From Thraustochytrium sp. TN22 (Eukaryota; Sar; Bigyra; Thraustochytrida; Thraustochytriidae): 64,000 nt of DNA. Under the pieces are notes generated by a model. That model did no database searches, was not told where the DNA came from, and saw only the letters and a program-made list of their open reading frames with translations. Position 1 is the first letter of the stretch. The number at the start of each line of letters is the position of its first letter. Both the position numbers and the translations under genes were made by a program. Positions 5,151 through 43,500 of this stretch are shown here, in pieces. The stretch lies in contig JABLUY010000015.1 in the NCBI GenBank assembly GCA_013306675.1, positions 1-64,000 of the forward strand, given 5' to 3'.

Positions 5151-5957
5151 TCAGTTGCCGTCAGACGTCACGCTCTTGATGAAGTCGCGCACGGCGTCGC
5201 ACTGCGCGTCCACGCTCTCGCCCGCGCCCTTGATGGTCTTGATCACAACGCTGCCCATGACTGCGCCTGCGGCGTACTGGTAGACGTCAATAACGTGCTG
5301 ACGCGTGTTGAGGCCGAAGCCAACTGCCAGCGGGATCTTAAAGTGCGTGCGAACGCGATCAGTAAACTCTTTGAGGTCCTCCGGCAGCTGATCACGTGCG
5401 CCCGTGACGCCGGTGACGGAGACACAATACACGTAGCCCGAGGCGATCTTGGCCACCTCGGCCAGACGCTTGTCCGTGGACGTGGGCGCGACGAGCGGCA
5501 CGTAGGCGAGGTTGGATGCGGCGCAGAGCTCCGCGAAGCGCACGGCCTCAGGGCCCGCCAGGTCCACCGCGATGAAGCCGCTGATGGTGGCCTCGGCGCA
5601 GTCCTTGACGAGCTTCTCCTCGCCGTACTGCATAAACGGGTTCCAGTAGCCCATGAGGATGACCGGCACCGTTAGGCCCTTGGTGCGCGCCTCCTTGACC
5701 ATGGCCAGCAGGTCCTCCATCTTCATCCCGCCCTGAAGCGCCACGAAGCTCGACTCCTGCACCACAGGGCCGTCCGCCATCGGGTCCGAGAACGGCATGC
5801 CCAACTCAATCACGTCCGCGCCGCCCTCCTGCATCGCCAGCATCTGCGGCACGGTCGCCGCCTTGCTCGGGTAGCCGGCCGTCACATACGGGATGAAGGC
5901 CGCGCGCTTCTCCTCGCCCGCCTTGGCGAAGGTCTTCTCCAGGTCCGCTACCGTCAT
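5151..5957 (-). CDS. trpA: Tryptophan synthase alpha subunit, copy 1
   Basis: The 268-residue protein has the full standalone TrpA length. It cleaves indole-3-glycerol phosphate to indole and glyceraldehyde 3-phosphate, the penultimate step to tryptophan, normally in complex with the beta subunit. The signature IELGMPFSDPMADGP is present with catalytic Glu51 and Asp62 (equivalent to bacterial Glu49 and Asp60), and the phosphate-binding glycine motifs near GFGLNTRQH and the C-terminal GAVMGS are intact. No beta-subunit domain is fused, unlike the fungal enzyme, and no transit peptide is evident. It differs from copy 2 at 42694 by only two residues (Glu versus Gly in the VRFAELCAA segment; Glu versus Asp in GAGESVD). 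A CCG triplet run sits in its leader. Confidence 0.95.
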   Translation of the reverse strand: MTVADLEKTFAKAGEEKRAAFIPYVTAGYPSKAATVPQMLAMQEGGADVIELGMPFSDPMADGPVVQESSFVALQGGMKMEDLLAMVKEARTKGLTVPVILMGYWNPFMQYGEEKLVKDCAEATISGFIAVDLAGPEAVRFAELCAASNLAYVPLVAPTSTDKRLAEVAKIASGYVYCVSVTGVTGARDQLPEDLKEFTDRVRTHFKIPLAVGFGLNTRQHVIDVYQYAAGAVMGSVVIKTIKGAGESVDAQCDAVRDFIKSVTSDGN

Positions 5958-6002
5958 CGTGGCTGCCGCTCGCGTCGCCCACCGCCTCTCCGCCCTATCG
6001 CC

Positions 6003-6045
<43 letters not shown>

Positions 6046-6047
6046 TG
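6003..6047. repeat. (CCG)n microsatellite in the trpA copy 1 leader
   Basis: About 15 consecutive CCG/GCC triplets lie 45-90 bp upstream of the trpA start. The equivalent place in copy 2 (about 42635-42650) has only a few GGC triplets, so the run expanded or shrank after duplication. Confidence 0.85.
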
Positions 6048-6904
6048 CCTGCTGCGCGCCGCGCTGCTCCAGTCTATGTTGCTGCTCCAAGCCTGACTGC
6101 AGGCTGGCCTCAGCTGGCGCGCGCCGGTGCGTGGTGGGTGCAGTGCACGAACAGCGCGCGGCGGGCTATCTTGACATAGGCAGGCCTCTGGTAGTTACCT
6201 TTGGCGCCGAGGCGCGCCGCTGGCTTGCAGGAGAGCCGCCCCGCGGACCAGACTTGACCTCAAAACACTAATAAGTAGCAGATGCTTTGGCGACGCAGGA
6301 GTTCGCCCTTTCTCTGGGGAGTCGCTCGGATGCTGGCCTGGCAGTGAGACGGCAGTGATCGCGAGTTGGACGTGCAAGCTTCCCTTCCTCACCTCGGCGG
6401 CGAAAAGCGTGGCGAAGAGCCTGATGCCCCAGCAGACGGTGTCCAAGGCACAACACAATCAACTTATGACGCCGTAGACGCAGACAGCCTCGCGTCACGG
6501 TACAGGCAGCTTTGCCTTGAGAACAGTGCGGGCATGCAAATCTCCAGCTTGTACGACTGCGAGCGAACTAGCCCGGGAGCAACCCATCGTCCTAGGCTCA
6601 CTGTCAAGACGATGGGGCTTGGACAAAGTAACCTGCCTCACTATCACTGTCACAACCACCAGAGATTGCAGCAACCAGCGCTCTTCATGTTGGCTACGTG
6701 CTTGCGTACTGGTGGCGAGCTTCGTGGCGGCGACGATGCTGGCTGAGATAATGTTTGTCTCGGTGCTGGCGTCTGTGTAGTGCGCGGCGGACGCGCCGTG
6801 CACTAGTTGAGCCGTGAGCGAAGGGCATCGTTCACTCTTCCCGTGTCGGTGTCCGAGGAAAAGCGCAAGCAGGTGGCCAAGCCGGCCACGCAGAGCGCGG
6901 ACAC

Positions 6905-7335
6905 TGGTTTCAGCTGGAAGACCACCTCTTAGCGCGCCGCCCAGTGCCTTCACGACGGCGCGGCCTCGTGGGCGGTTTCCAAGACAACACCAAGGACGCG
7001 ATTGAGATTGGCTCCAACCATTGGCAACCGCATGTCGATCGGCAGTGGACGCACGGCGTGAACGTAGGCCATGGCATGATGGTCTGGTCGCTCATGTATC
7101 GGCAGACCGGCGACGCGTCATGGTGGGGGCGCGGGCACGCTGCATGGGACCGCATCATGAAGCTACATGGACAGGCCACCGGTGTTTTCACGGGCGACGA
7201 ATGTCTGAGCGGGCGCACGCCAGACCGTGGCACAGAGACTTGCACGGTGGTGGAGATCATGAATTCGGCCGCCACCATGTTTATGGCGTCTGGCGAATCT
7301 GCCTACATGGACCGGGTCGCACCATGCGTGTATCT
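6905..7335 (+). pseudogene. GH127 / DUF1680-like glycoside hydrolase fragment
   Basis: One frame reads SNHWQPHVDRQWTHGVN, then GHGMMVWSLMYRQTGDASWW, HGQATGVFTGDECLSGRTP and RGTETCTVVEIMNSAATMF. This order and spacing recall the central part of the GH127 (DUF1680, beta-L-arabinofuranosidase-type) family, where a GDE-x-L-x-G-R-x-P-x-x-GTE-x-C-x-VVE block holds catalytic Glu and Cys residues. Only about 130 residues are readable; the frame ends in low complexity after about 7330 and nothing matching the rest of the roughly 600-residue family precedes it in one frame. I read it as a relic; an exon of a heavily spliced gene is possible but unlikely here. Confidence 0.55.
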
Positions 7336-8070
7336 CTACCGGGCGCGGCGGAGGCCCAGACGGTGAGGTGCGAGAGGCAAACACGCTCGGCCAATCGGGC
7401 GCCCTCGCGGGCTTAGGCGGCGGCGGCGCGCGGCGGCGGAGCGAGGGAGGGTCGTTTGGTCGACACGCGTGTGGAGGCGCTGATCATGGGCGTCTCGCGC
7501 TTTGGAGAGCTGATCGGCAAGCATGCGCCTCGATCGGCATTGACGGAGTTCTGGACAAAGCCGATCGATCAGGTGCGCATCGTCTTCGACTTCGGTGCCG
7601 CCTTTGCGGCGTGCAAGAGCGTGAATATGCTTCTCTCCTGCTGTCGTCGTCCGCGTGCCGCTCTCGCACGTCACCAAGCACAGCAGAGCAACCGACTGCG
7701 CAGCGCTGAAGCGCTGCAAGCCTGAGCCGGCGGCCGTACTACTAACGTTATTTGGCTCGCCTTAGGGCCAACGACGCCAACCGAAAAAAAACTCTTCCGG
7801 AAAGTTGAACTTTGAAATCCTTCATGGTGCTGGCTCGGAAAAGTCCTCACTCGCGCCCTACGAATACCAATGAGTCCCTGCCAAGACTGCCTTGGCTCAC
7901 CGTCAAGAGGCGCGAGGTCTCACCTCCTACAATCATGAACATCGCTCTCCGTACACTGACCAAGCGCTGGGAACAACGAGACAAACCAAAACAAGAAGAG
8001 AAAGAGTCAACCGCGCAAAGTGCGTTACGCCAAAGAAATCGGAATAGAAGGGGATAGGGAAGAACGGCAC
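7336..8070. other. Intergenic stretch with a weak unassigned reading frame
   Basis: A plus-strand frame over about 7456-7665 (VDTRVEALIMGVSRFGEL and onward) looks protein-like but short and matches nothing I know; it could be another relic. The rest, up to the RPS3A stop at 8071, is less GC-rich and probably holds the RPS3A 3' end. Confidence 0.3.
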
Positions 8071-9135
8071 TCACAGACGACCACCCGAGCCCTCAAGCTG
8101 AGTCTCCTCGACGGCCGGGTCCTCGCGGTCGACGGCAGCGCCGACGTCGGCGCCGGACTCCTGGTGCTGCTCCATGAGACGCGAGAGGTCGAAGCGGGGC
8201 TTCTTGAGGATCTTGACCTTGCGGATGGCGGCGTCCCTGCACGGGAAGATGCCCTCGACGGCCTTCTCGATCTCCTTGCCGATGGTCTCGGGGAGAAGCT
8301 TGGCCACGAGCTCCTTGAGGTCGCACTTGGCCGCCTCGTCCTGGATAACCTGCACCATCTTTGCCCGAATAAGGCGGGCCTGGCCGGTCTGGCAGTAGCA
8401 GGCCTTGGCCATGGAGTTCCGCTGCTTGCGGGTGAAGGTGATGGCGAAGAGGCGCACGGTGTAGCCGTCCGTGGTGCGGACGTCCACACGGCCCTCAATC
8501 AGGGTCACGCGCTTCTTGATGAGCGAGCAGAGCTTGTCGCGGGTCAGGCAGAGGCCGTGGAAGGTGGTCAGCACGTTGTCGCCCTGGACATCCTCGGCGG
8601 CGAGCTTGATCTTGACGTGGCCCATGTCCGGGTTGTTCTGCAGGTCGGCCAGGCTCACCTCGAAGATGCGGCCCTTGATCTGCTCAGAGGCGATCTTGGT
8701 GCCGGTGGTGCGCGTGCACGGCGACTTGCCAGCATCGCGGTTCGAGAACACGTTCGGGGCCTTGACGGTGTACCTGTGCAGGACGTAGAGCACGCGCGAC
8801 GCTGTCAGTCTCTGTGTCCATGGATCATTCGTCTCCTCTCGGCGCCACGACGGAAGGTGTCCAGCGCCGGCAACGAGCGAGCGACGCCCGCTCGCCTACA
8901 ACATCCCAGGCGCGTCGTCCGCCCGCCCGCCCGCCCGCCCGCCAGCTGGCCTGGCGCCCGCGTCCAGCCACCAGCATAGCCGCCATCCCCAGGCTCATGG
9001 GCGCCTCGCCTCGCCGCCCGCCCGCGCGCCGTCGACGCCGCCGCCGCTCACGTACCAGTCCTTGCGCGTGAAGGGGTCGACGACCTTCTTCTTCTTGCCC
9101 TTCTTGCCGAGCTTGCGGTTCTTGCCGACCGCCAT
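8071..9135 (-). CDS. RPS3A: 40S ribosomal protein S3a (eS1), two exons
   Basis: Exon 1 is 9135-9056 (start [20 protein letters not shown]) and exon 2 is 8773-8071; together they encode 260 residues, against about 264 in animals. The intron (8774-9055, 282 bp) has a GTACGT donor and a CTGCACAG acceptor; joining gives ...[12 protein letters not shown], matching the conserved KDWYDVKAPAMF of the family. Downstream, [37 protein letters not shown] and [12 protein letters not shown] are diagnostic. eS1 is a core protein of the small ribosomal subunit near the mRNA exit. The C-terminal tail is Glu/Asp/Gly-rich and divergent, as usual. I looked for box C/D motifs in the intron and saw no convincing snoRNA. 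Confidence 0.95.
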
Positions 9136-9255
9136 GGTGCCCGCCGCGAGCAGCCGCCGCGCCAAACCGATTTGACTGCGCCGCCCTGCTGCCGCCGCCG
9201 CCGCCGCCTCTCCTTCCCCGCCACCACCCAGCCGCCCGTGCCAGCCGCGTTCCCG

Positions 9256-9272
9256 CTAGGGTTCTACCCTAG
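9256..9272. promoter_or_regulatory. Palindrome CTAGGGT-TCT-ACCCTAG upstream of RPS3A
   Basis: A perfect 7-bp inverted repeat with a 3-bp spacer lies about 121 bp upstream of the RPS3A start codon. Its arms carry the TAGGG/CCCTA core seen in telo-box promoter elements of ribosomal protein genes in plants. Its role here is inferred from position only. Confidence 0.4.
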
Positions 9273-10005
9273 TTTGCCACCCCGCGTTCCCGGCCTTAGG
9301 CGCGCGGCGCGCGTCTGCGGCGGAGTGAGGCGGGCGCGCGCCGCGTAAGGCGGTGTGCGCGCGTTGCGCAGACCGCGGCGGGGCTCTGGCCGATGTATTG
9401 GTGGGAGCAGACTGCGCAGGCCGGGGGGGGGAAAAGGCCGCGCGCGGACGCCGCTGAGGAGGACGATGGCGAATGATTGGCTGATGGGTCCTGATGGTGA
9501 CCTAATGGTCTGGACATGGTGAGTCATGGTCTGGACATGGTCTTCTTTCTAACGGAGTACGAGGGGGGCCGGGAAGGCAATGAGCTGGACTTGAGCTTGG
9601 GGCGGCGACAGTGAAGTCGTACTTGGTTGAGTGGCCGCGTCCTCGTGCTGGTCGCTCGTCGAGTTCTGGCAACAGCGCGCGGGCCCGGGGTCCAGTCTTC
9701 GGGTCCACTGGTGGCTGGCTGGCCGCAAGTGACGGCGCGTGGTTGCTCAACATGCCATGGTCGAAGTGAAGTCGCTGCTGCTACAAGTTGAACTTGGCGC
9801 CGCGACGGCCTTTGGCGTGGCCCTGCACCAACAGGTTGTTGAAGCGAGCGAGAGCAGAGCAGAGCAGAGCAGAGCCGAGCTGAGCTGAGCAGATCGACGA
9901 CGCGACGCGACGTGAGCGGCGAGAGCGCAACAGTCCACGCGGCGAGCAGCGAGGCAGGCCTTCGCTTCGTTCGGGACGGTGACGGGCCAGGCGCAGGAGG
10001 GCAGC
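9273..10005. other. Divergent intergenic region, RPS3A / homoserine dehydrogenase
   Basis: This 0.7 kb carries both upstream regions. It has a duplicated TGGTCTGGACATGG motif near 9508-9541, a G run near 9422-9430, and a short AGCAG tract near 9854-9878, the same pentamer that is expanded at 43795. No gene is seen. Confidence 0.45.
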
Positions 10006-11076
10006 ATGGCGGCGACCCGGTCGCTGGCGGTCTTCGGCTTCGGCAATGTAGGGCGCGTGCTGTGCGAGCAGGCGCTCGCGGCCGGGTGCGCCGTGCCAGT
10101 GGTGGCAGACTCCTCGGCGGCCGTGGTGAAGAAGGCCGGCCTGACGGAGCAGGATATTCGCACGCTGGGCGAGGCCAAGGCGAGCGGCACGCGGCTTGCG
10201 GATGCGGCGAGCCAGCTGAGCGGCGTGGACGTCGCCTCGCCGTCGGAGGCCGTGCAGCTCATGGCGGCGCTCCCGGGCAAGCCCGGCCTGGCCGACACGA
10301 GCGCTAATGCCAGCGCCGGCAAGGACTATCTGCTGCAGGCGCTCGAGGCCAAGCTGCCCATCGCGCTGGCCAACAAGAAGCCGCTCAGCGAGGACCTCGC
10401 CACCTTTAACAAGCTCACGGCGGACAACTCCCTCATCGGCTACGAGGCCACCGTGGGCGCCGGCCTGCCCGTCATTTGCACGCTGCAGCGCATGCTTGAC
10501 GCTGGGGACCGCGTCACTCGCGTCGAGGGCCAGCTGTCCGGCACGCTGGGCTACATCCTCAGTGCGCTCCAGGAGGGCGGCACCTTTAGCGACATTGTTC
10601 GCGAGGCCAAGGCTCAGGGCTTCACCGAGCCCGACCCCCGCGACGACCTTTCAGGCACCGACGTGGCGCGCAAGGCCCTCATCCTCGCGCGCACCATGGG
10701 CATCGATGTTTCCATGGACCAGCTCACCGTCGAGGCGCTCTTCCCGGACTCGTTTGCCGACCTCCCGCTCGACGAGTTCATGAGCCGCCTTCCCGAGCTC
10801 GACGATGACGTTGCCAAGCGCGTCAAGGCCGCCTCGGACGCCGGCGAGATGCTCCGTTACGCTGCCGTTGTCGAGCCGGGCAAGCCCATCTCCGTTGGCC
10901 TCGTCCAGGTCAAGGCCGATGCCCCGCTTGCCTCCCTTAAGGGCACCGACAACCTCGTCTCCTTCTCATCCGAGTGGTACAACACCTCGCCGACCGTCGT
11001 GCGTGGCCCCGGCGCTGGCCTTGAGGTCACTGCCGCCGGCGTCCTCGCCGACTTTATGTTCCTCACGCGCAAGTAG
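10006..11076 (+). CDS. hom: Homoserine dehydrogenase, monofunctional
   Basis: The 356-residue protein starts at the ATG at 10006; the frame opens slightly earlier only through a GTG. It reduces aspartate semialdehyde to homoserine with NAD(P)H, the branch point toward threonine and methionine. Residues 9-16 (VFGFGNVG) begin the Rossmann fold. Residues 201-223 fit the PROSITE-type family signature, with AKAQGFTEPDPRDDLSGTD leading to catalytic Lys223. The substrate-site segments ANKKPLSED and GYEATVGAGLPVI are present. It has neither an N-terminal aspartokinase domain nor a C-terminal ACT domain, so it resembles the short fungal-type enzyme in layout. No transit peptide is evident. Confidence 0.93.
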   Translation: MAATRSLAVFGFGNVGRVLCEQALAAGCAVPVVADSSAAVVKKAGLTEQDIRTLGEAKASGTRLADAASQLSGVDVASPSEAVQLMAALPGKPGLADTSANASAGKDYLLQALEAKLPIALANKKPLSEDLATFNKLTADNSLIGYEATVGAGLPVICTLQRMLDAGDRVTRVEGQLSGTLGYILSALQEGGTFSDIVREAKAQGFTEPDPRDDLSGTDVARKALILARTMGIDVSMDQLTVEALFPDSFADLPLDEFMSRLPELDDDVAKRVKAASDAGEMLRYAAVVEPGKPISVGLVQVKADAPLASLKGTDNLVSFSSEWYNTSPTVVRGPGAGLEVTAAGVLADFMFLTRK

Positions 11077-12066
11077 GCTTGCTTGAATTGAAGAAGGCTG
11101 ATTGATTGATGGATTGACCCGCTGACCCAACCTTGTCAGGCCGAGACAGTGGCGGCACGCCGGCACATGCCCGCATCAGGCTGGCCTCTCACGCTGCCAC
11201 GCCTTGCCATGGTGGCATGGTCACTGCCAGGCTCACAGGCAGGACTGCCAGGCATTCCGAGGCCCCTTGGGCCTTGCGTGCGCTTCTGCGCAACTGGCGC
11301 AACGCATCGAAACTCATCTCATCACTCACAAGCCAGCCTCCTTTGGCTGCGCCTGCCTGCATCTCTCTGAGTCTGAGTTAGCCTCTAGGCCTACAAGTTG
11401 TTGCCAGCCAGCCAGACATAGACTTTGCATTGCCGAGTCCGACGACGTGAGGCTCTCTCTGGCCGGCCGCCGCCGGCGGAACAACCAAAAGCTCCACCCC
11501 GCCATTAGCACACTGATGTGAGTCGGCGTCCAAGCAGCCAGCAACGAGCCAAGCTGCAGCCATGCTCTCCCAGCTCCCCGTCTGCCGCGCCACGCCCCGC
11601 CTCGTCCCGCCCCACCCCGCCCCGCCTCGCCTCAACTCGACTCGCCTCATCGCGCCACCCACTACACCCTTCTTCGGCAACGCGTCGGTACCATCGCCGG
11701 CTCCGATGACATCGCGAGACAGCCTGACGAGGCGTCGTGGAGCGGCACCACAAAACCGAGTCTTGGTCCGAGTTGGTCGGCGTGCTTTCGGGTTGCGTAG
11801 CGCTTCTGCAGCAGTGCAGCAGCAGCTTCGGCAGCTTCGGCAAGGCCGCTTCAAGTTCTGCGGCACTGGCTGAACGCGCATCCCGTAACTTACCAACCTC
11901 CGAGTCCCCTGATCCGTGGCCGCACGAGGCTCCTGGACACTAGACAGTGAGTGAAGCCGTGGGGGCCAAGTGGCACGCAGCTATGCTTGGTTCAGCTGGG
12001 CCAGTGCCGGCCACTGAGCCGCGCGCGCGCGCCCGCGCGCGCCCCTAGCAAAGTTGCAACCACATT
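11077..12066. other. Intergenic, no recognised gene
   Basis: About 1 kb of mixed sequence after homoserine dehydrogenase. It holds pyrimidine-rich CCGCCCCGCCTCGCC-type repeats near 11585-11640 and one TAGGCCTA palindrome at 11386-11393. Open frames here are short, overlap on both strands and lack any motif. Confidence 0.45.
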
Positions 12067-12067
12067 G

Positions 12068-12140
<73 letters not shown>
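12067..12140. repeat. (CAG)n trinucleotide tract
   Basis: About 22 nearly perfect CAG/AGC triplets, ending with a few CAA interruptions. It is open in several frames on both strands, giving poly-Ala, poly-Ser, poly-Gln or poly-Cys, so the open frames there mean nothing alone. Confidence 0.95.
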
Positions 12141-12141
<1 letters not shown>

Positions 12142-12164
12142 CGCCACCGGCCAGATAGGCGCAG

Positions 12165-12205
12165 AACAGACAGACAGACAGGCAGACTGCAGACAGGCAG
12201 ACTGC

Positions 12206-12258
<53 letters not shown>

Positions 12259-12259
12259 G
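12165..12259. repeat. (CAGA)n tetranucleotide tract
   Basis: Tandem ACAG/CAGA units, with two CAGGCAGACTG variants near 12180-12205, then a pure run to 12259. It ends one base before the ATG at 12261. Confidence 0.95.
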
Positions 12260-12260
12260 C

Positions 12261-12527
12261 ATGAGGCTGCCGCTGCAAAAGATGAGGAATCGCAGCGCGA
12301 GCCGCGCGAGCGCCGCGAGTAAGAAGCCGCAGGGCGACGCTGGTGGCAGCGTGTGCTCGCCGGCCACGCAGCGGTCCTTTCAGAGCGATGCGACGGCGCC
12401 CAAGAAGCGCCGCGCGTGGTCCATCATCAGCTCAGGCAGCGCTAGTAGCTCCAGCAAGCCCAAGCGCCTGCTCATGTGCAAGAGGAAGTCATTCACCAAG
12501 TGCACTTCGGCTGAGTCCTCCGCATGA
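12261..12527 (+). CDS. Possible small basic Ser/Lys-rich protein
   Basis: An 88-residue frame begins at the ATG directly after the CAGA tract. It is rich in Ser, Lys and Arg with patches such as PKKRRAW and KPKRLLMCKRKSF that would suit nuclear targeting or nucleic acid binding. I recognise no domain. The composition is less GC-driven than in the shadow frames nearby, which is the only argument that it may be real. It could be chance. Confidence 0.25.
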   Translation: MRLPLQKMRNRSASRASAASKKPQGDAGGSVCSPATQRSFQSDATAPKKRRAWSIISSGSASSSSKPKRLLMCKRKSFTKCTSAESSA

Positions 12528-13479
12528 GCGCTCGCATCGCTGGCGTGGATGAGCACTCGAGACCGAGGCGTGCACCATGGCCCGGGCCAGCGCCGATGCA
12601 GTCGCGCGGCAGCGGACTGCGCTCTTTGCAGCAGGTGGCCAGGAGCTCGGCTCGGCTCGTCAAGTGCAGCGCAATACATCACCACGCATACATCCTAGAG
12701 ATGAGTTTGCGCGTTTGCCGCGATGCGCTCGGGGTCAAGCAGGCCGTGGTCCTCTCTGCGTCGGCTGTTGGCACGTTGTGGTGCCTCTCACTGTTGGGCG
12801 CAGTCCTTTGTCGGTCTGGCTCGATATGAACAAGGGCAACCGCTAGTGTGGACGCGGCGTTTGACGTGATGGACATGCGAAGATGCCTCGGATCTCGTAG
12901 CTCCGGCTTCTCATCGACAACGCCGGAGGACGTCTCCCTCGGCTGGACTCTTCCGGGCCGTTTGTGGTCGGTCGCCGAGCTTGCTCGCCACACAATCAGA
13001 CTTCACGCAACGCGACGCGTCGCGCAAGAGGCGGCGCTGTCTAGCTAGCTAGTGTGAAGAGTCTTTCAGGCGGGCGGGCGATCAAAATCACTCTGCGTGG
13101 CTCTGAAGGTCTCCACTAGGAGCGAAGCGTATGCAAGAACGTCTGGTTCATGGGGTCACGACATGGCGAACCCGCATCCATCGCAACAACGCACGCTGCA
13201 TCATCTGCAGATCGAGCCAACTCCTGTTTTCTCGGTCCCACCCAAGGTGCGGTGCGGTGGCAGCGTCAGCGCGAGGGACACCGGGAAGAGCGCCCTCGCC
13301 GCCCGAAACTTTATGTCCTGCATGGCGTGCTGCGCAATCCTCTTCGAGCGATGCTTCCTCTTCGTTCGGCCGCCGACATTGTAAATATCCTTTCAGAAAC
13401 AGCTTTCGCATCGCACACAGACTTATCTGGCCTGGACGCCTTTCCATGAGAGCGCCAGTCGACCGCAGGCGCCAGACAT
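12528..13479. other. Intergenic, no recognised gene
   Basis: About 0.95 kb up to the DUF707 gene stop. It holds a short GCTAGCTAGCTA motif near 13040-13050. Its right part is probably the 3' end of the DUF707 gene. Confidence 0.4.
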
Positions 13480-16710: not shown

Positions 16711-16826
16711 CGTTCGTGCTTGTCCTGCGCGTGCACTGCCAGTGCCCGCCTTGAGTGAGTGCCTGCAAGTGCCACGTGTACGTGCCTTACGCCAAGCCGT
16801 CACGTCGGGCCTGGACGCTGTCGCCA

Positions 16827-16857
<31 letters not shown>

Positions 16858-31200: not shown

Positions 31201-31217
31201 TCCGCGCTCGCCTCGTT

Positions 31218-31248
<31 letters not shown>

Positions 31249-31408: not shown

Positions 31409-31452
<44 letters not shown>

Positions 31453-33351: not shown

Positions 33352-33396
<45 letters not shown>

Positions 33397-33509
33397 GATC
33401 GAAGGACTGCAGAGCGCGGCACCGGTGGCGAGCAAAACGGGTTGAGCTAGCGATTGCTTGGGCGGGCGAGCAAGCGAGCGAGCCAGCGAGCGCTTGGACG
33501 ACAGGCGAA
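32356..33509. other. Divergent intergenic region with two (GA)n microsatellites
   Basis: Contains GCCGCGCCGCGC repeats near 32395-32435, a GA tract at about 32826-32848, CTAGCTAG clusters at 32895-32935, and a second GA tract at about 33354-33392 that lies 118-156 bp upstream of the ATIC start. No gene seen; both genes' promoters must lie here. Confidence 0.55.
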
Positions 33510-35354
33510 ATGGCGCAGAGCCACGCGGCGATCGTGGGCAGCACGGAGGACAAGGTGCAGGTGAAGCGCGCGCTGCTGAGCGTGAGCGACAAGGCGGACC
33601 TCGTGGCCCTGGGCCAGTGTCTGGCGGAGCAGGGCGTGGAGCTGCTGTCGACTGGCGGCACGGCCAAGGCGCTGCGCGATGCCGGGCTGACGGTGAAGGA
33701 TGTGGCGGAGGTGACCGGGTCGCCGGAGATGCTGGACGGCCGCGTCAAGACGCTGCACCCGAAGATTCACGGCGGCATCCTGGCGGTGCGCGGCAACGAC
33801 CAGCACGCCAAGGACATGGAGGAGAACGGCATCGTGGGCATCGACATGGTGGTTCTTAACCTGTACCCGTTCGAGCAGACCGTGGCCAAGGGCTCCGACT
33901 TTGCCACCTGCGTGGAGAACGTCGACATTGGCGGGCCGGCCATGCTGCGCGCCGCGGCCAAGAACCACAGCGCCGTAACCATCGTGACGAGCCCGTCGCA
34001 GTACGCGCGGCTCATGGACGAGCTCAAGGAGAACAGCGGCTGCACGACCATGAAGCTGCGCAAGAGTTTTGCGGCTGCCGCCTTTTCGCTTTCGGCCCAG
34101 TATGACGGCGCCATCGCGTCCTACATGGCCAAGGAGACTGAGTCGCCCGTGCCCACGGTGACGCGCACCTACGCGGTGGAGCGCCCGCTCAAGTACGGCT
34201 GCAACCCGAACCAGCTGCCGGCCGGCCTGTGCCGCATCGCCGGCACCAAGATGCCCTTCGAGGTGCTCAACGGCAACCCGGGCTACATCAACCTGCTGGA
34301 CGCCTCCAACGCGTGGCAGCTCGTGCGCGAGCTGCGTGCGGCGCTCGGCGTCGCCGCGGCCGCCTCCTTCAAGCATGTCAGCCCTGCCGGCGCCGCCGTC
34401 GCCGTCCCGCTCACTGACGTCGAGGTGCAGGCCTATGAGATGGCCGGTCGCGACATTCAGCTCACCGACTCGGCGCTCGCCTACCTGCGCGCCCGCCAGG
34501 CCGACCCGCTCTCCAGCTTCGGCGACTTTGCCGCGCTCTCCGACGTCGTCGACAAGGACACCGCCATGGTGCTCAAGACCGAGGTCAGCGACGGCATCGT
34601 CGCCCCCGGCTACGACGATGACGCCCTCGAGATCCTCAAGGCCAAGAAGAAGGGCGGCTTCATTATCCTCAAGGCGGACCCGACCTTTGAGCCGCCCCAG
34701 AACGAGTACCGCGAGGTCTTCGGTCAGGGCTTTATGCAGAAGCGCAACGATATCCAGCTCACGCCCGAGTCCTTCTCCAACGTCGTCACGACCAAGGCCA
34801 CCTCCATCCCGGACGAGGCCAAGCGCGACCTCACCGTCGCCTCCATCGCCCTCAAGTACACCCAGTCGAACTCCGTTGGCTACGCGCAGAACGGCCAGAT
34901 GATCGGCGTCGGCGCCGGTCAGCAGTCCCGCGTCGACTGCGTCAAGCTTGCCGGCCGCAAGGTCCAAACCTGGTTCATGCGTCAGCATCCCAAGGTTCTC
35001 GGCCTCAAGTTTAAGTCCTCCGTCAAGCGCCAGGAGCGCATCAACGCCCGCGTTCGCTACATCGAGGGCAACTTTGCCGAGACCGAGCGCGCCCAATGGG
35101 AGACCCTCTTCGAGGAGGTGCCCGAGGCCCTCACCCAGCAGGACATTGACGACTTCATGGCCACCCTCTCTGGCGTCGCCAACGCCTCCGACGCCTTTTA
35201 CCCCTTCCGTGACAACATCGACATCCTCTCTCGCTTTGGTGTCTCCTACATCGGCCAGGCCGGCGGCTCCGTGCGCGACGCCGACGTCATCGAGGCCTGC
35301 GACCAGTACGGCATTGCCATGGCCTTTAACGGCGTGCGCCTCTTCCACCACTAA
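33510..35354 (+). CDS. ATIC: Bifunctional AICAR transformylase / IMP cyclohydrolase
   Basis: The frame opens at a GTG within the GA tract, but the ATG at 33510 gives 614 residues beginning [10 protein letters not shown], near the usual 592. It performs the last two steps of de novo purine synthesis: formyl transfer from 10-formyl-THF to AICAR and ring closure to IMP. The N-terminal cyclohydrolase domain (about 18-165) has [22 protein letters not shown] and [15 protein letters not shown]. The transformylase domain follows, with [12 protein letters not shown] containing catalytic Lys288-His289, then [11 protein letters not shown] and the C-terminal [20 protein letters not shown] and RLFHH. All key motifs are intact. 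A 651-codon open frame on the opposite strand is an artefact of GC-rich codons. Confidence 0.96.
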
Positions 35355-36306
35355 GCTAAGAGCAAGAAGTTGCGACGTGACGCCAAGAGCAATGGCCGGC
35401 AAGACGTCTCTCTATGCTCGAACATACGTAACGATACGTGCTCCAGGCCACGACTGTGTCCCATGGCGCCTCCCGTGCCGCTTTCCCCTCCATGCACATT
35501 TCCCTCTTTCATGTTGTGTCGACTGATGCCAGAACGAAGCTTTGGCTTTGCAGCTGTCGATGACTCTGCGACCCCCACCAACATTACCTTGGAGCTACAG
35601 CGGTGGCGAGGTGCACAAGGGGAAGGAAGACCTTCACGTCGACCTCTCCGCTCGAGGCTCGTCCGTCCGACGAAATCCGTTCGTCGAAACCTGCCTCACG
35701 GATGATGATGCACTGTGGCGGCTGCAGTGGCAGCAGTCGGCCCCGCGTAGCACCATGCTGCGCTTAGATAGATGAGTCAGCTCGCAGGCTTGGTTGGGCG
35801 TGCTGTTCACCTTCTCTGGCCGTGGTCCGAGTCGCCGTGACTCGGTGACAGGCGGTGCCTGTGGCAGGCAGGCCCTCGGCCATGCAGCTGCTGACAGTCA
35901 GTAAGGGCACTGGCAGGGCGGCTGCAGCACTGCAGGCGCCTCACTCTCGTCAGGCCTCGTCAGGCTCATCGAGTTAGAGTTCTCGGTGGTGCAGTGTCTT
36001 GCAGCCGAGGCCAGCGGAACCGCGTTCCGCGGATTCGCTCCGCCGCGCCTTGCTACTTTTAAGTTACGCCTACGCTTGCCAGCCTGATCTCAGTGTCAGT
36101 CGCTGACTGCTGACTGTGAAGTGACAGTGACAGCGCAGTCAGCCACTGGCACAGGCAGCGTCTTGCGAGAAGGACCTTTCCGAGGGCGGCGCGGCAGCGA
36201 GGCCGCGAGCAGAGCGCGGCGCGCGGCGGCGCGCGGGCGGCGTGCGGCGGGGCGGCGCGTGAGGCGCGGCGGCGGCGGCGGCAGGCAGGCGGCGGCGGGC
36301 GGCGCG
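35355..36306. other. Intergenic with a short protein-like relic
   Basis: Between about 35520 and 35740 overlapping plus-strand frames read ERSFGFAAVDDSATPTNITL, then in another frame VHKGKEDLHVDLSARGSS; this looks like a decayed coding piece but I cannot place its family. Near 36090-36150 there are several CAGTGACAG-like repeats. The rest is unassigned promoter region. Confidence 0.35.
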
Positions 36307-37710
36307 ATGCGCGCGCCGGGCGCGCAGCGCGGCGCGGTGCTGGACGCGGGGCGGGGCGGCGGGGCGGCGGACGCGGCGCTGGGCAGCGGCGGGGGCGGCG
36401 GCTTGGGCGGCGCGCCGGACCTTGCAGCGGCGGCGCGCAGCGCAGCGGAGCGCGCTGCAGCGCAGCAGCTGCTGGTGCAGCTGGCCATGGCCGTGGCGTA
36501 CGCCGGCTTCACGCTGGGCGCGCTGCGCGTGCGCTCCTGGCGCTTCAAGCACCGCGTGTCCTTCAAAGTGCTCAACACAAGCGAGATCGAGGGCATCCGC
36601 GAACTGGTGCAGAGTGAGGATGCGGACGAGGAGGGCTCAGAAATTGACAGCCTGCTGAGCCCGTACTCCAGCGACCTCCTTGTCGGCATCCAGGTCGACG
36701 GCGACGTCGTTGGCGTCGACACGGTCAACGTGGACGGACCGAACGGCTACCTCGAGGAGGTGAAGCTGGCACGTCAATTCTGGGGGTACGGCCTCGAGGA
36801 GGCGCTGCGCCGCCAAACGCTCGAGATTGTGCGCGCACCGCCGCCTGCGGTAGCTGCGCGCGTGCCGCGTGAGCGCCTGCGCCAGCTCGTCTTTGCCTGG
36901 AACGAGCGTGCGCGCGCCATCTGCGCGGCTACTGACATGCACGAGGCGGCGCGCTGGTCCTACTTTGTAGCAGACGCGCCACGCAAGGCCGCTGCGGTGC
37001 TGCGCCGTCTCGACCAGGCTGCGCCCGTGCCGCTACCGCCCTTGCAACAGGTTACGCGCCTCTCACAGATGCTTGCAGCCCTCCGGCGCACCGCGCACAA
37101 CGACCTCCTCTTGCAGTACTGGGATGTGTACGACGTCTCGAGGCCCGTCGTTATCTCCCTCTTTTCCGGTGTGCTCGCCTTCAGTCCACGCGGCGCTGCC
37201 GGCGCAGCCTCCTCCTCCTCCTCCTCCTCCTCCTCCTTTTCGCCCGTTGGTGCAGATGCGCCGCATCACGAAGCGGAGGCAGCTATCACTGCGCCGCTGC
37301 TCGTCTCAACCCGAGACAGTCCTTCCTCAAGCGGCTCGGGCTGCGGCTCGGGCGATGACGAGGACCTTCTCGGAGCTGAGGACCTCGTGCGTACGCTGCA
37401 CGTGCGCAACTGCGTCATGCAGGCCGCCAACCTTACCTGCAGCGTTGGCGAGCTTATCGATCGCGACGAGCCTCTCGGCTCGCTCTGTACATTCACAGTC
37501 TACTGCAATTCCGCGGACGCCGCGCGTCATGCGCATCGCTGTCGAGCCGAGGCTCTAGCTCACATCAGCTACTGGGCACGTCTTGGTCTCGAGATGCGTT
37601 GCAAGTCCCTCGCCATGTTCTGCTCTCCCGCGCTTCACGAGCTGCTCGCAGATGTGGTCGACTTTAAGACTGCCTCGCAGCTCATCCTCTTCCAGACCTC
37701 CCTGGCTTAA
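36307..37710 (+). CDS. Unknown protein with one hydrophobic segment and large C-terminal domain
   Basis: The frame opens upstream at a GTG, but the first ATG is at 36307, giving 467 residues. After a Gly/Ala-rich start there is one hydrophobic segment at about residues 58-73 (VQLAMAVAYAGFTLGAL), then SWRFKHRVSFKVLNTSEI, and a globular region with DLLVGIQVDGDVVGVDTVNV, and later AHNDLLLQYWDVYDVSRPVV and HISYWARLGLEMRCKSL. A poly-Ser stretch encoded by TCC repeats (37207-37238) interrupts the middle. I do not recognise the family. It looks like a real single-anchor membrane protein, because the frame uses balanced residues outside the low-complexity parts. Confidence 0.65.
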   Translation: MRAPGAQRGAVLDAGRGGGAADAALGSGGGGGLGGAPDLAAAARSAAERAAAQQLLVQLAMAVAYAGFTLGALRVRSWRFKHRVSFKVLNTSEIEGIRELVQSEDADEEGSEIDSLLSPYSSDLLVGIQVDGDVVGVDTVNVDGPNGYLEEVKLARQFWGYGLEEALRRQTLEIVRAPPPAVAARVPRERLRQLVFAWNERARAICAATDMHEAARWSYFVADAPRKAAAVLRRLDQAAPVPLPPLQQVTRLSQMLAALRRTAHNDLLLQYWDVYDVSRPVVISLFSGVLAFSPRGAAGAASSSSSSSSSFSPVGADAPHHEAEAAITAPLLVSTRDSPSSSGSGCGSGDDEDLLGAEDLVRTLHVRNCVMQAANLTCSVGELIDRDEPLGSLCTFTVYCNSADAARHAHRCRAEALAHISYWARLGLEMRCKSLAMFCSPALHELLADVVDFKTASQLILFQTSLA

Positions 37711-38000
37711 CAGTTGAGCGAGAGCGAGAGCAAGCACGAGCTGGTACGTAAGCAAAAGCAAGCAAGCAAAGCAAACACACAAGATTGCACGCTGCCCGGC
37801 CGCCTCATGACGAGCTGCCCGGCCGCCTCATGCCCGGCTCGCTTTTTTGCCTCCCCACCATCAGTCGGACGAAACGACGTGCCTCTGACACGAACGGTCG
37901 CAAGCGTGCTGCGCGCCGTGGATATATAGTTGCCCGCATACAAATCTCTCCCTTTCTCGCTCTCCAAGCCACCAAGTCTTCAAGAGGCGGCCGATTACGA

Positions 38001-39383
38001 TTATGAAGTTGCTGATGATGCTGCTGATGAGGAGGAGGAAGAAGATGCTGAGGAAGAAGATGAAGACGATGACGCTGATCGAGACCGCGATTGGGACCGC
38101 GGCCGCGACGGCGTCTCTCGGGACAGCCCGTCCTTCTCTGGCAAAGACTTCGCCCTCGTATCGGATGCCGACTGACTCTGCCGAGGTGCCGACCGGCTTC
38201 TGCGGGGCGAATCAGCCTCGCTACGGGATTCCGGGCCTCGGCGCTCGGCGCCCTCACTTGACGAATCCCCTTGCTGCCGCCGCTCGGCCGTGGCCGCTGG
38301 GTCGTTCTGCTGGGCTCCGATCGCTCCTGTCTCCTCCTTGTCCTCGACAAGGCGACGCCTCTTCGGTTCGCGCAGGCGGGCGTGGATGCGCTCCTTCGCC
38401 ACGCCCCCATCCGTATCGCTTGACGACTCGGACCGAGAACGCGCGCGCCGCTTCCTGCGACGACGCGCTGGCGAGCCCGAAGCCACGGAGGGGTGCGAGG
38501 ACGATGCGGAAGACGAGGAGGAAGACGAAGACGAGGACGACGAGGATGAGGACGAGGACGAAGACGAAGACGCCGAAGAGGAGGAGGAGGAAGAGGAAGA
38601 GGAAGAGGAGGAAGAGGAAGAGGTAGACGACCCCGAGTCCTCGCTATCGCTCCGCCGGCGCCGCTTCCTCAACGTGCCCTCCAAGCTCGCGGCGACCTCA
38701 GCCTCCTTGGCCTCGCGCTCGCGCCGACGCGCCTCGCGCTTGGCAAGCTGCTTCTCGGGGTCAAAGCCATCACCGGCACGGTGCGAGGGCGCGATTTGAA
38801 AGGCGTCGCGCAGGCGAGCGTCCTGCGCGGACCTCAGCGACTCCGACTCCTGCGCCGCGCTGCGCCGATCCTCCCAGCCGCGAAGACTTGGACCTCTGGG
38901 GACCGGCGAGGCCGTCGCGCTCGTCCTTGCGCGCGCATCCTTGTGGACGCCCGCATCGACTTTGGTGTCCCCTGTTTGCTGGTCCTGCTTGAGCTTCTTG
39001 CGCGCCTTTTTGGCCTCCTTGCGCTGCCGCCGGGTCTCGGCCAGCCCATCTTGACGGCGCTTGCGCAGCGCCGCGCAGGCCTCATCCACAGCGGCCGCTT
39101 GCTCGCCCTTGGCCTCCAGCTGCTCGCGCAGTTCCAGCACCTCCAGTTCGATCTTGCGCTGCTCTTCGTGTGCCTGCAGCTCCTTGTCGACACGTGCGCC
39201 AGGCGGCGCAGCAGCGCCCCACCTGGCGCCGCCGCGGCCGGCCGAGGCGCGCCCGCGACCAGCGTTGGCCGCTCGGTCGCGCCGATCGCGGTCCTGACGC
39301 ACGAGCCCGGCATTGGCCTGCACGAAGCCGCTCGTCGCGCTCCCGCGCAGCTTTGAGAGCCCGACGCCGTTGTACCGAGGCAT
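38001..39383 (-). CDS. CWC21: Cwc21 / SRRM2-like spliceosome protein
   Basis: The ATG at 39383 gives 460 residues starting MPRYNGVGLSKLRGSATSGF, a clear match to the YNGIGL-x-T-x-RGSGTNGYVQ N-terminus of Cwc21 and SRRM2/SRm300. The cwf21 domain follows near residues 66-95 (ELQAHEEQRKIELEVLELRE), which in yeast binds Prp8 and Snu114 in the activated spliceosome. The rest has a basic coiled segment, a poly-Ser stretch, and a C-terminal RS/SR-rich tail, making it closer in layout to SRRM2 than to the 135-residue yeast protein. Ser and acidic runs are encoded by long GAG/GAC-like repeats at 38510-38630. The in-frame upstream extension is poly-Arg/Ala translation of a CCG repeat. Confidence 0.85.
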   Translation of the reverse strand: MPRYNGVGLSKLRGSATSGFVQANAGLVRQDRDRRDRAANAGRGRASAGRGGARWGAAAPPGARVDKELQAHEEQRKIELEVLELREQLEAKGEQAAAVDEACAALRKRRQDGLAETRRQRKEAKKARKKLKQDQQTGDTKVDAGVHKDARARTSATASPVPRGPSLRGWEDRRSAAQESESLRSAQDARLRDAFQIAPSHRAGDGFDPEKQLAKREARRREREAKEAEVAASLEGTLRKRRRRSDSEDSGSSTSSSSSSSSSSSSSSSSASSSSSSSSSSSSSSSSSSSSSASSSHPSVASGSPARRRRKRRARSRSESSSDTDGGVAKERIHARLREPKRRRLVEDKEETGAIGAQQNDPAATAERRQQGDSSSEGAERRGPESRSEADSPRRSRSAPRQSQSASDTRAKSLPEKDGLSRETPSRPRSQSRSRSASSSSSSSSASSSSSSSAASSATS

Positions 39384-39414
39384 CGTGTCGGCGTCCACCG
39401 CGTCCGCCGCGTCC

Positions 39415-39449
39415 GCCGCCGCCGCCGCGTCCGCCGCCGCCGCCGCCGC

Positions 39450-39480
<31 letters not shown>

Positions 39481-39482
39481 GA
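39415..39482. repeat. (CCG)n microsatellite upstream of the Cwc21-like gene
   Basis: A run of CCG/CGC triplets with a few GTC interruptions lies 35-100 bp upstream of the start codon, in the presumed 5' leader. Confidence 0.85.
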
Positions 39483-39693
39483 CGTGGCACGCTTGTTCTT
39501 TGCTTCGGTGTCCACCGAGTCGGCGACGAGAGCCTACCTGCCAGACGCCAGACTTGGAGCGAGGCGGCGCAACGCGGCGCAACGCGACCGGGCAGGAGAG
39601 GACGACGGCAAGGCCGGGCGAGGAGAGCAAGTCAATGCAAAGGAGCAATCCAGATTGTACCAGTAGTTCGTTACTGCAGAAGCACCACCATCA

Positions 39694-41691
39694 TCAAAGA
39701 ATCTCCTCAAGCAACTTGCGCGTGGCCGGCGTGGGCGCAACGCCAAGGTCTGCGAACTGGAGGGCACGGCGACGGCCAGCGCCAGCCTCGGGGTCCGGTG
39801 TCGAGACGCGCTCCAGCAGGCTTGGCGTGCGCGGAAGAGTGAGCGGGCTCGAGGCCATGCCGGAGGTGTGCGCGAAGCGCTTGCGCTCGAAGGCGGAGCG
39901 CTCCTCGTCAAGGCGACGCGCCTCCTCGAGAAGCATGGCGCGGTCCGTCTCGAGGCGCTCACGCGCGCGCTGCATGTCGAGCTCCTGCAGATTGAAGAAC
40001 TCCTGCGAGCGCAGTCGGGCAATCTCATCGTCGAGCCCGCTAGACGGCGGCGCCTTGAGGTCGAGGGCGTCGTCGTCGTGCTGTGGCGGCGCTTGGCAGA
40101 GCAGGGTGGACCGCAGGCAGGCGTCCAGGTCTCTGATGAGGGTCTTGGCCTGGTCGAGGCGCTCCTTGAGGTCGTCCTCGGAGGGAGGCGCACCGTCATC
40201 GCCGCCCTCGAGCGGACCCGGGCCCGCCTCGAGAGCCTCCAAGAAGGAGAGCGTGTGGTTCTGCACGTCGGCAAGGCGGCGCTCGAGCTGGTCCGCTGGC
40301 AGGTCAAAGCTCGCTTCAGCGAGGCGCAGCGTGTCAATCTCCATCGCCCGGGCCCCAGTGTGCGTCACGTCGCCCTCCTCCGTGCCGCCCTCGGGCCCAG
40401 AAGCGGCAAGAAGGCTGCCGGCCCGCGGTGTGCGGGCTGGCACTGGCGCCGGCGCCGTCGCCAGGGCCTGGAGCTTGGTGAGGATAAGGTTCTGCATGGA
40501 GTGCAGCGAGATGCGCAGCTTCTGGTTCTCGTTGACCAGGTAGGCGACACGACGGCCGCGGGATGTCTCGGCAGCGGCCTCGAGCTCCGCAAGCGCGCGC
40601 GACGCAGCCTCGGCGTCGTCCACGGCGTCCTGGACGGCTTCGTCCGAGTCCGCGTGCGCGCGCGCCGGCGCCAGCGCCGGGTCGCTGTCCAGCAGCGGGC
40701 GCGTACCGCCGGCCTTGGGCGGCGTGTCCTGCTCTAGGCCACGCTTCAGCGTCTTGTCTCGCTGCACCTGCAGCATCTGCATGCGCTTCTGCAGGCGCTC
40801 GTACTCGGCCTCGCGTCGGTTGAGCGCGGCCTGCCAGCCCTTTTGCTGGCCTTCCATCTTAGCGATGTTGACCTGCAGCTCCTTGTTCCACGCGTCGCTA
40901 CGCTGCTTCTCCTTGGCCGCTTGCTCCGAGGCGATGCGGGCGCGATTTTCCAGCGCCGACAGATCCTGCTTCAGGCAGAGCACTTGCAGCTTGAGCGCCT
41001 CCTTTTCGTTCTGCAGCCTCTTGCAGTCCAGCTGCACGCTGTGCGCGGCGTCTTCGTAGTTCTGCGTGATGTTTGACGATTGCCGTAGTTCCTCCAGGAC
41101 CGCCTGCACGACCTGCACGATGCTCTTCGGATCCTCCAGTCGCAGCTGTGGAAACCCAAGCGCATCGAGCTTCGCGTTCAACCCGCCCATGACTCCGTCC
41201 GCATCCGCGGCCACGATCTCGCTGGAAACAAGCAGGCGCTCCTCGACCAGCAGCTGAGGCTCCTCAAAGCTGTCGTCAGCGGCAGCGGCGCTCGACAAGG
41301 GCGCCGCCGACGCCGCCGCCGATGACGACGACGACGACGACGTCGACGACGGCAATGCCGCGGGCGGCATGGCCGGCGCGGCCACGGCCGCTGACGTCGA
41401 GGTGTGCAGCGGCTTGGGCGCCTTCGCTGGCGATGCCAGTGACCCCGCCACCGATGCAGCCGACCGCATCGACAACTGTAAAGCGTCCTGGTTCTCCTTG
41501 CCGCCGTCATCCTCCGACGTATTAGCGCCCACTGAGTCGGCGTCAGCCATGGCCTCGCGCTTCTTACGCCTCAGCCACGGCTTAGCCGGCGGCGCGCCAC
41601 CACCCTTGCTTGTATTCTTGAAGGATGCCGTAAAGTCCATGAGCACGCCGGCATCGCCCTCGCCAGCCGCGCCCAGGTTCTCCTCGTCCAT
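39694..41691 (-). CDS. SSX2IP / MSD1 (ADIP)-like centrosomal coiled-coil protein
   Basis: The ATG at 41691 gives 665 residues starting MDEENLGAAGEGDAGVLMDF; the upstream in-frame part runs into the duplicated block and is not coding. Residues about 165-320 fit the ADIP domain: LNAKLDALGFPQLRL, then SIVQVVQAVLEELRQ, a coiled coil with DCKRLQNEKEALKLQV, and YERLQKRMQMLQVQRDK. In animals SSX2IP and in fission yeast Msd1 anchor microtubules at the centrosome or spindle pole. A second set of coiled coils follows (about 370-620), and the C-terminus PATRKLLEEIL is short and hydrophobic. Family membership rests on the order of these segments; confidence is moderate. Confidence 0.7.
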   Translation of the reverse strand: MDEENLGAAGEGDAGVLMDFTASFKNTSKGGGAPPAKPWLRRKKREAMADADSVGANTSEDDGGKENQDALQLSMRSAASVAGSLASPAKAPKPLHTSTSAAVAAPAMPPAALPSSTSSSSSSSAAASAAPLSSAAAADDSFEEPQLLVEERLLVSSEIVAADADGVMGGLNAKLDALGFPQLRLEDPKSIVQVVQAVLEELRQSSNITQNYEDAAHSVQLDCKRLQNEKEALKLQVLCLKQDLSALENRARIASEQAAKEKQRSDAWNKELQVNIAKMEGQQKGWQAALNRREAEYERLQKRMQMLQVQRDKTLKRGLEQDTPPKAGGTRPLLDSDPALAPARAHADSDEAVQDAVDDAEAASRALAELEAAAETSRGRRVAYLVNENQKLRISLHSMQNLILTKLQALATAPAPVPARTPRAGSLLAASGPEGGTEEGDVTHTGARAMEIDTLRLAEASFDLPADQLERRLADVQNHTLSFLEALEAGPGPLEGGDDGAPPSEDDLKERLDQAKTLIRDLDACLRSTLLCQAPPQHDDDALDLKAPPSSGLDDEIARLRSQEFFNLQELDMQRARERLETDRAMLLEEARRLDEERSAFERKRFAHTSGMASSPLTLPRTPSLLERVSTPDPEAGAGRRRALQFADLGVAPTPATRKLLEEIL

Positions 41692-42693
41692 CTCACGAAG
41701 CGAACAGGACCGACGCGCGAGCAAGCTGCCTGCCCGCCTCCACAGGGACGCCGACCGCCTCGATCCAGCACTACTCCGCCCCTTTCGCGCGCGAGCTTCG
41801 GCTCTGGCCTCGCGCGCAGCCGCCCGCCGCGCGCGCCGCACCGCGCCGTCGCTATAGAGCGCAGGACCGCCCGAGCCTAGCGCGCGGTAACCGCCACGAG
41901 GGGCCCGAAAATGCGTTGCGCAGAGGTGCGTGCTGCACTGCACTGCAAATGAAAACACGCGGCCAAAACCAAAATGCAAGCACGTACGCGGCCAATATGG
42001 AAAGCGCTGGCTGCTGCAATCTCTGGTGACTGCGACTGTGACAGAGGAGTTGGCTGCTTTGTCCATCTCGATTGACAGTGAGGCTTCGATGAAGGGTTGC
42101 TCCCGGGCTAGTTCGCTCGCAGTCGTACAAGCTGGAGGAGAGTGGATGTGCATGCACAGAAGATGCCAGAAAAGCTGTTCACGCTTGTTATCAAGGCGAA
42201 GCTCCAGTACCAGGCTACCCATACTAACCTACCGCGACGCAAGGCTGTATGCGTCTACGGTGGCTTGTAGTGCGCCTTGGACACCGTCTGCTGGGGCATC
42301 AGGCTCTTCGCCGCGCTTTTTGCCGCCAAGGCGAGGAAGCTGGCACTGCCAGGCCAGCATCCAAGCGTCTCTCCTCTGACTGGCAGAGAAAGGGCGATCG
42401 TGGTAACCCTCCTGCGACTCTACTACTCCATGCTGCAGCCGCGTGGCGCCGTGCGTGGCCTATGTCCGAGTCCGAGTCGTTGGCAAGGCGCAGGCGCTCG
42501 GCGCCGCTCGGCGCCGCTGGGCCCCTTTGTCAGTGGCGTCGTTCGCGCACCACGCACTGGCGCGCGCTAGCCTAGGGCGCGGGCTTGCGTCGGCAGCAGA
42601 AACGCGAGGGGCGCGGCGCAGCGGGCAATAGCGCAGCGGCGGCGGCGGGACAGCAGGGCGGAGAGGAGGCGGGCGGCGCGAGCGGCAGCCACG
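41692..42693. other. Intergenic between MSD1-like gene and trpA copy 2
   Basis: From about 41975 rightward it belongs to the duplicated block shared with 6280-6690. It includes a GGCGCCGCTC double repeat near 42498-42518 and the trpA leader. No gene seen. Confidence 0.5.
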
Positions 42694-43500
42694 ATGACGG
42701 TGGCGGACCTGGAGAAGACCTTCGCCAAGGCGGGCGAGGAGAAGCGCGCGGCCTTCATCCCGTATGTGACGGCCGGCTACCCGAGCAAGGCGGCGACCGT
42801 GCCGCAGATGCTGGCGATGCAGGAGGGCGGCGCGGACGTGATCGAGCTGGGCATGCCGTTCTCGGACCCGATGGCGGACGGCCCTGTTGTGCAGGAGTCC
42901 AGCTTCGTGGCGCTCCAGGGCGGGATGAAGATGGAGGACCTGCTGGCCATGGTCAAGGAGGCGCGCACCAAGGGCCTGACGGTGCCCGTCATCCTCATGG
43001 GCTACTGGAACCCGTTTATGCAGTACGGCGAGGAGAAGCTCGTCAAGGACTGCGCCGAGGCCACCATCAGTGGTTTCATCGCGGTGGACCTGGCGGGTCC
43101 TGAGGCCGTGCGCTTCGCGGGGCTCTGCGCAGCATCCAACCTCGCCTACGTGCCGCTCGTCGCACCCACGTCCACGGACAAGCGTCTGGCCGAGGTGGCC
43201 AAGATCGCCTCGGGCTACGTGTATTGCGTCTCTGTCACCGGCGTCACAGGCGCGCGTGATCAGCTGCCGGAGGACCTCAAGGAGTTTACTGATCGCGTTC
43301 GCACGCATTTCAAGATCCCGCTGGCTGTCGGCTTTGGCCTCAACACCCGTCAGCACGTCATTGACGTCTACCAGTACGCCGCCGGCGCCGTCATGGGCAG
43401 CGTTGTGATCAAGACCATCAAGGGCGCCGGCGACAGCGTGGACGCGCAGTGCGACGCAGTGCGCGACTTTATCAAGAGCGTGACTTCTGACGGCAACTGA
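42694..43500 (+). CDS. trpA: Tryptophan synthase alpha subunit, copy 2
   Basis: The 268-residue enzyme has the same reaction and motifs as copy 1, including Glu51 and Asp62 in IELGMPFSDPMADGP and the intact phosphate site. By hand alignment it differs from copy 1 at about 33 of 804 coding bases, about 31 of them silent. Flanking DNA has diverged more and with indels. That pattern means both copies have been kept under protein-level selection since duplication, or have been partly homogenised by gene conversion. No stop, frameshift or altered catalytic residue is present. Confidence 0.95.
   Translation: MTVADLEKTFAKAGEEKRAAFIPYVTAGYPSKAATVPQMLAMQEGGADVIELGMPFSDPMADGPVVQESSFVALQGGMKMEDLLAMVKEARTKGLTVPVILMGYWNPFMQYGEEKLVKDCAEATISGFIAVDLAGPEAVRFAGLCAASNLAYVPLVAPTSTDKRLAEVAKIASGYVYCVSVTGVTGARDQLPEDLKEFTDRVRTHFKIPLAVGFGLNTRQHVIDVYQYAAGAVMGSVVIKTIKGAGDSVDAQCDAVRDFIKSVTSDGN

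Follow-up and report, generated by a model that had tools for sequence, protein, structure and literature searches.

Small-scale gene duplicates that are retained under purifying selection, either for dosage or by regulatory subfunctionalisation, form a known class. The two genes for the alpha chain of tryptophan synthase (trpA) described here, which are located in a 64-kb stretch of the Thraustochytrium sp. TN22 genome (the window), share with this class that both coding regions are conserved, that flanks and passenger DNA have decayed and that the upstream regions are partly different. They are set apart from it because they encode one subunit of a heteromeric enzyme, the partner of which was found once, and because the copies are inverted and lie 36 kb from each other. 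We consider the pair to be essentially an ordinary kind of retained duplicate and a well-resolved case. A description of this pair was not found in the literature searched, which does not prove its absence from print.

Duplicated alpha subunits also occur in plants. Excerpts of two reports describe TSA paralogues (Arabidopsis INS, maize BX1 and IGL) that have diverged in activity or compartment (PMC12727527, PMC10142997). The duplication of the alpha subunit is shared with our locus, but the two TrpA proteins are 99% identical here and no functional divergence is visible. As far as these excerpts go, the plant paralogues constitute a precedent for duplication of the alpha subunit alone, which a preliminary description of this DNA had regarded as unusual. 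For fungi (PMC10893352) and diatoms (PMC3942023), excerpts of the corresponding papers describe fused alpha-beta tryptophan synthases. The same two activities are involved here, but the alpha and beta genes are located on different contigs and IGPS and PRAI are fused instead.

Layout of the locus and gene copy numbers

The window comprises the first 64 kb of contig C66 (288,833 bp) in an assembly of 37.9 Mb and 453 contigs, and its G+C content is 64.5%. The surrounding genes (condensin II CAP-H2, ubiquitin hydrolase, cwf21, PP2C, ABCA-type transporter, AICARFT/IMPCHase), of which many occupy long open frames, suggest a eukaryote with few introns. When we compared the window with itself using blastn, we found a unit of about 2.2 kb in two inverted copies (left, L; right, R). 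One block (4887-6713 vs 43804-41968) is 78% identical over 1944 columns (E=0.0) and a second one (4558-4914 vs 44270-43932) 71% over 361 columns (E=3e-42), and these E-values exclude chance similarity. The inverted blocks reported previously (4555-6700 and 41975-44345) are thus confirmed, with the edges given in Table 1. Each unit consists of upstream sequence (about 756 bp in L, about 726 bp in R), trpA, a 3' spacer and the last 300 bp or so of a convergent PPTase gene. Genome searches, which score the best candidates only, yielded nine matches for 4500-6800, all on C66, and 40 rows for 41960-44700. Of these 40 rows, seven are on C66, 32 fall in an LTR-like repeat outside the R unit and the remaining one is a short hit of the GC-rich leader at another place.

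Table 1. Positions of the features discussed in the text (numbering of the window)
Feature	Position	Strand	Basis and remarks
Duplicated unit, left copy	4558-6713	-	blastn self-comparison and alignment
Duplicated unit, right copy	41968-44270	+	blastn self-comparison and alignment
trpA copy L, tryptophan synthase alpha chain	5151-5957	-	268 aa, intact, PF00290 E=1.1e-85
trpA copy R, tryptophan synthase alpha chain	42694-43500	+	268 aa, intact, PF00290 E=4.5e-85
Copy L upstream segment, no clear homology with its R counterpart	6105-6298	-	local alignment z=0.5
Copy R upstream segment, counterpart to L 6105-6298	42425-42545	+	local alignment
PPTase 3' fragment, left unit	4558-4857 (protein match 4560-4817)	+	one internal stop, indels
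PPTase relic, 3' part, within and just past right unit	43930-44307 (protein match 44069-44218)	-	
PPTase relic, further piece beyond repeat insertion	44796-44924	-	residues 247-283
Intact PPTase	56729-58006	-	AASDHPPT_N and ACPS (PF22624, PF01648); parent or sister of relics
Dispersed solo-LTR-like repeat in right PPTase relic	44315-44803	-	one end truncated by about 43 bp

A third trpA was not found in a search of the 37.9-Mb genome, which leaves a total of two. Only one trpB exceeded the cut-off, a 481-aa open frame without an alpha domain on contig C4; the second match, on contig C442, was weak (40 bits vs a cut-off of 392). The earlier remark that no duplicated beta subunit is in view thus also applies to this genome search. 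IGPS and PRAI gave one match each, both in a single fused frame on contig C55 (stretch L018:598-2379). The alpha gene is thus the only one doubled among the late pathway genes tested (trpA, trpB, IGPS and PRAI); trpA, trpB and IGPS-PRAI are carried by different contigs. As a separate observation, this genome joins IGPS and PRAI in one gene, yet keeps the alpha and beta chains of tryptophan synthase separate.

Since trpB, IGPS and PRAI are single, the assembly is not generally doubled. This observation argues against an assembly artefact or unmerged haplotypes, in which case only one trpA would be real. The contig does start inside a GCG repeat, but both copies are located on this one long contig, border on different sequences on the outside and show 16-20% divergence and numerous indels in their flank segments, so that such an artefact appears extremely unlikely.

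Two repeat features were seen in passing. A perfect AGCAG pentanucleotide array of 37.6 copies occupies 43787-43974 in the R spacer, L has only a few units, and the same unit recurs at a distance of about 0.7 kb from trpB, within a translated ORF (stretch L003). Part of the ubiquitin hydrolase gene (58840-61155) is repeated in direct orientation at 53126-54116, where a relic (75%, 1038 columns) represents a further local duplicate within the window.

Two trpA genes and their proteins

Both trpA products match PF00290 over its full length and well above the cut-off of 27 bits (287.2 bits for L, 285.1 bits for R, profile positions 1-247 of 259 in each case), which identifies them as TrpA. The genes differ at 33 of 807 bases, distributed as 1, 1 and 31 over the first, second and third codon positions, and there are no indels. 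This exact count agrees with the previous estimate of about 33 differences, about 31 of them silent, and it leaves two amino acid exchanges among 268 residues (E143G and E247D). Both exchanges fall on positions that vary among bacterial homologues: in an alignment with six bacterial TrpA sequences, residue 143 is A, E, E, D, V and Q, and residue 247 is K, A and K in the three of the six that reach it without gaps. The active-site residues had been described as retained in both copies, and this was also what we observed. E51 and D62 (E50 and D61 if Met is not counted), which we take to be the catalytic Glu49 and Asp60 of the enterobacterial enzyme, are invariant in all eight aligned sequences. 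An N-terminal extension was not seen on TrpA and, for this reason, the protein is probably cytosolic. It would most likely form an ordinary tryptophan synthase with TrpB, in which the same TrpA made from two loci would pair with the product of the single-copy trpB.

According to the same excerpts on plant paralogues (PMC12727527, PMC10142997), stand-alone indole-3-glycerol-phosphate lyases of the BX1/IGL/INS type originated repeatedly from TSA, and one of the two copies might have taken this route. However, such lyases are paralogues that have diverged from a housekeeping TSA, whereas the proteins compared here differ by the two exchanges at variable positions only and reveal no functional divergence. 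A change of this kind is therefore exceedingly improbable.

A recent transfer of trpA from bacteria is not supported by our scans of genome contigs and plasmid records, in which no close bacterial donor was seen. A first pattern scan of genome contigs matched 115 stretches, none of which was confirmed as a relative. An alignment-based scan indicated that at least 595 stretches encode relatives, and among the best 80, which were kept, identity reached 45% at most (a Chloroflexota MAG and a Proteobacteria MAG; L029, L044). For plasmids, the identity did not exceed 43.8% among the 25 of 133 records listed.

Divergence of coding and flanking sequences

To quantify the divergence of the pair, we determined a dN of 0.003 and a dS of 0.18 (NG86) or 0.41 (YN00), which corresponds to dN/dS ratios of 0.007-0.018. 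At fourfold sites of trpA, 22 of 150 positions differ (JC distance 0.163). Three flank segments (41968-42345, 43531-43800 and 43975-44270) differ at 59/321, 46/233 and 43/264 positions (JC 0.21, 0.23 and 0.18) with 19 gap events, and when pooled at 148/818 (JC 0.207). Segments 42346-42600 (91/234 differ, partly non-homologous), 42601-42693 (17/93) and 43501-43530 (2/27) and the AGCAG array were left out of this count. In the flanks, 16-20% of the aligned sites differ, with the exception of the middle upstream segment (39%) and the 27 sites following the stop codon (7%), and 28 gap events were counted over the six listed segments vs none in trpA. Synonymous sites and flanks have thus diverged alike, by about 0.16-0.21 substitutions per site.

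A simple neutral model, in which the transition share was set to 0.58 (a chosen value close to the 85/148 of the flanks), predicts for 31 silent changes about 79 amino acid changes if both copies were free of constraint and about 40 if one copy was. When half of the divergence is unconstrained, the model yields about 40 amino acid changes along with about 9 indels, but two and zero were observed (P ~5e-15 for amino acid changes and ~9e-5 for indels under the one-free-copy model). Under this model, the unconstrained share of the divergence is about 8% at most, which leaves at least about 92% during which both copies were under constraint. Taken together, these data show that both trpA copies are held to a near-identical protein by purifying selection, as the preliminary description had proposed, and the pair combines a dN/dS far below 1 with constraint on both copies in the way retained duplicates do. 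The preservation is restricted to the protein level. Decay of the passenger DNA had also been claimed correctly, as can be seen from the indels in the flanks and the internal stop in the left PPTase fragment.

These results also bear on the possibility that one copy has recently lost its function, or is losing it, and is intact in appearance only. Copy L adjoins repeat relics and a glycosidase fragment, and little trace would be expected from a recent loss. However, the small unconstrained share of the divergence and the intact reading frames and active-site residues of L and R make this scenario unlikely.

Gene conversion was the other process that had been suggested to keep the copies alike. 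A pair homogenised by conversion should exhibit synonymous divergence well below that of its flanks. The fourfold value is nominally lower than the flank value, but the two do not differ significantly (Fisher P=0.35), and we therefore attribute the likeness of the trpA genes to the removal of amino acid changes from both copies and not to homogenisation. The uniform divergence of coding and non-coding parts, which had been named beforehand as an argument against selection on trpA, was indeed found for synonymous vs non-coding sites, but it counts against conversion and not against selection. More detailed inspection of the gene indicated that synonymous differences are unevenly distributed and increase along trpA (4, 6, 9 and 14 differing codons per 67). 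The longest run of identical codons, at the 5' end, comprises 46 codons (permutation P=0.046), and the first third holds 6 of the 33 differing codons (P=0.053). Between 42677 and 42842, which covers the last 17 bases of the leader and the first 49 codons, there is one L/R difference; the 17 leader bases are the same in both copies, although the last 60 before the ATG contain 8 differences. The low divergence of the 5' end is borderline and could stem either from constraint on this end or from a single short tract that was converted long ago. Conversion along the gene should have lowered the synonymous divergence as well, so that one short tract is plausible at most, and we consider it quite unlikely that conversion keeps the genes alike.

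Origin of the duplicate, upstream regions and retention

The preliminary description had placed a dead PPTase beside each trpA. Relics are indeed present at both genes, and a protein search found none elsewhere, but an intact PPTase is located about 12 kb beyond the R unit. The dead pieces are thus relics of a copied neighbour, and the link of PPTase to trpA is collateral. In a three-way comparison of 307 gap-free sites, the odd one out is the intact gene at 49 sites, the right relic at 26 and the left relic at 23, and all three differ at 6; the pairwise distances are 0.255 and 0.244 between the relics and the intact gene and 0.186 between the relics. These counts suggest that the left-right split is younger, and they indicate the order of events rather than dates since the intact gene is constrained and the relics are not. 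From this pattern, a PPTase copy probably arose first and came to be arranged tail to tail next to trpA, after which a later duplication of trpA took the end of this copy along. The right relic reaches past the unit (to 44924), which suggests that R is the likely source and L the daughter.

The right relic is interrupted by a repeat of about 520 bp, which gave 32 match rows outside C66, some of them from one copy, and about 105 bp of PPTase are absent at this site. Of 14 stretches fetched, eight were aligned with the window; by eye, five carry 5-bp direct repeats at both ends, one matches four of the five bases and two show none. The genome copies are thus dispersed, with defined ends and short target-site duplications, as is characteristic of solo LTRs, and for the truncated copy in the window no target-site duplication was made out. 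On the opposite strand, the element begins with TGTTGG, as many LTRs do. The genome search with 4500-6800 did not find this repeat in the left unit. Two dispersed repeat stretches are located upstream of L (6789-6907 and 7365-7880; 19 rows outside C66), and a GH127 beta-L-arabinofuranosidase gene fragment (6818-7363, E=5e-6) adjoins the copy. On the other side of L, 4230-4570 matched nothing but itself.

The upstream end of the R unit precedes the probable start of a divergent gene (about 41690, start by eye) by some 280 bp, and the unit therefore probably included the trpA promoter. When compared with 300 shuffles of two-base blocks, the far upstream parts of L and R are homologous (z=65), and so are the proximal 150 bp or so (z=7). 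The preliminary description had proposed different leaders, which holds in part: between these regions, a segment that measures 194 bp in L and 121 in R is not recognisably homologous (z=0.5; z=2.1 and P=0.04 for a wider R stretch). In addition, the leader contains a run of 14 GGC-type units in L (within 5958-6120) vs four in R. Because the upstream segments are partly unrelated, the expression of the two genes may differ.

We consider it highly probable that a local inverted duplication of 2.2 kb gave rise to the pair and that both trpA copies are kept by purifying selection, presumably for dosage or regulatory subfunctionalisation. A piece containing trpA, its 726-756 bp of upstream sequence and the convergent PPTase end would have been copied from R, and the daughter L would have landed about 36 kb away beside dispersed repeats and the glycosidase fragment. 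Since then, selection has held both TrpA proteins nearly alike, while synonymous sites and flanks drifted similarly. The PPTase pieces would have been free to decay because the intact gene persists 12 kb off. Both copies may have been retained for total TrpA output or for output under different conditions, mediated by the partly different upstream regions. It is very unlikely that the organism deliberately produces alpha in excess of beta, with a second trpA that is switched on separately through its partly different upstream region and the free product of which, in the presence of little or no TrpB, would leak indole as signal or side-product.

The trpA pair is a clean case, found in nature, in which both duplicates are subject to selection and the hitch-hiking DNA serves as local neutral yardstick. 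If both copies are expressed, the pair would offer a test of whether a subunit of a heteromeric enzyme can persist at double dose without its partner.
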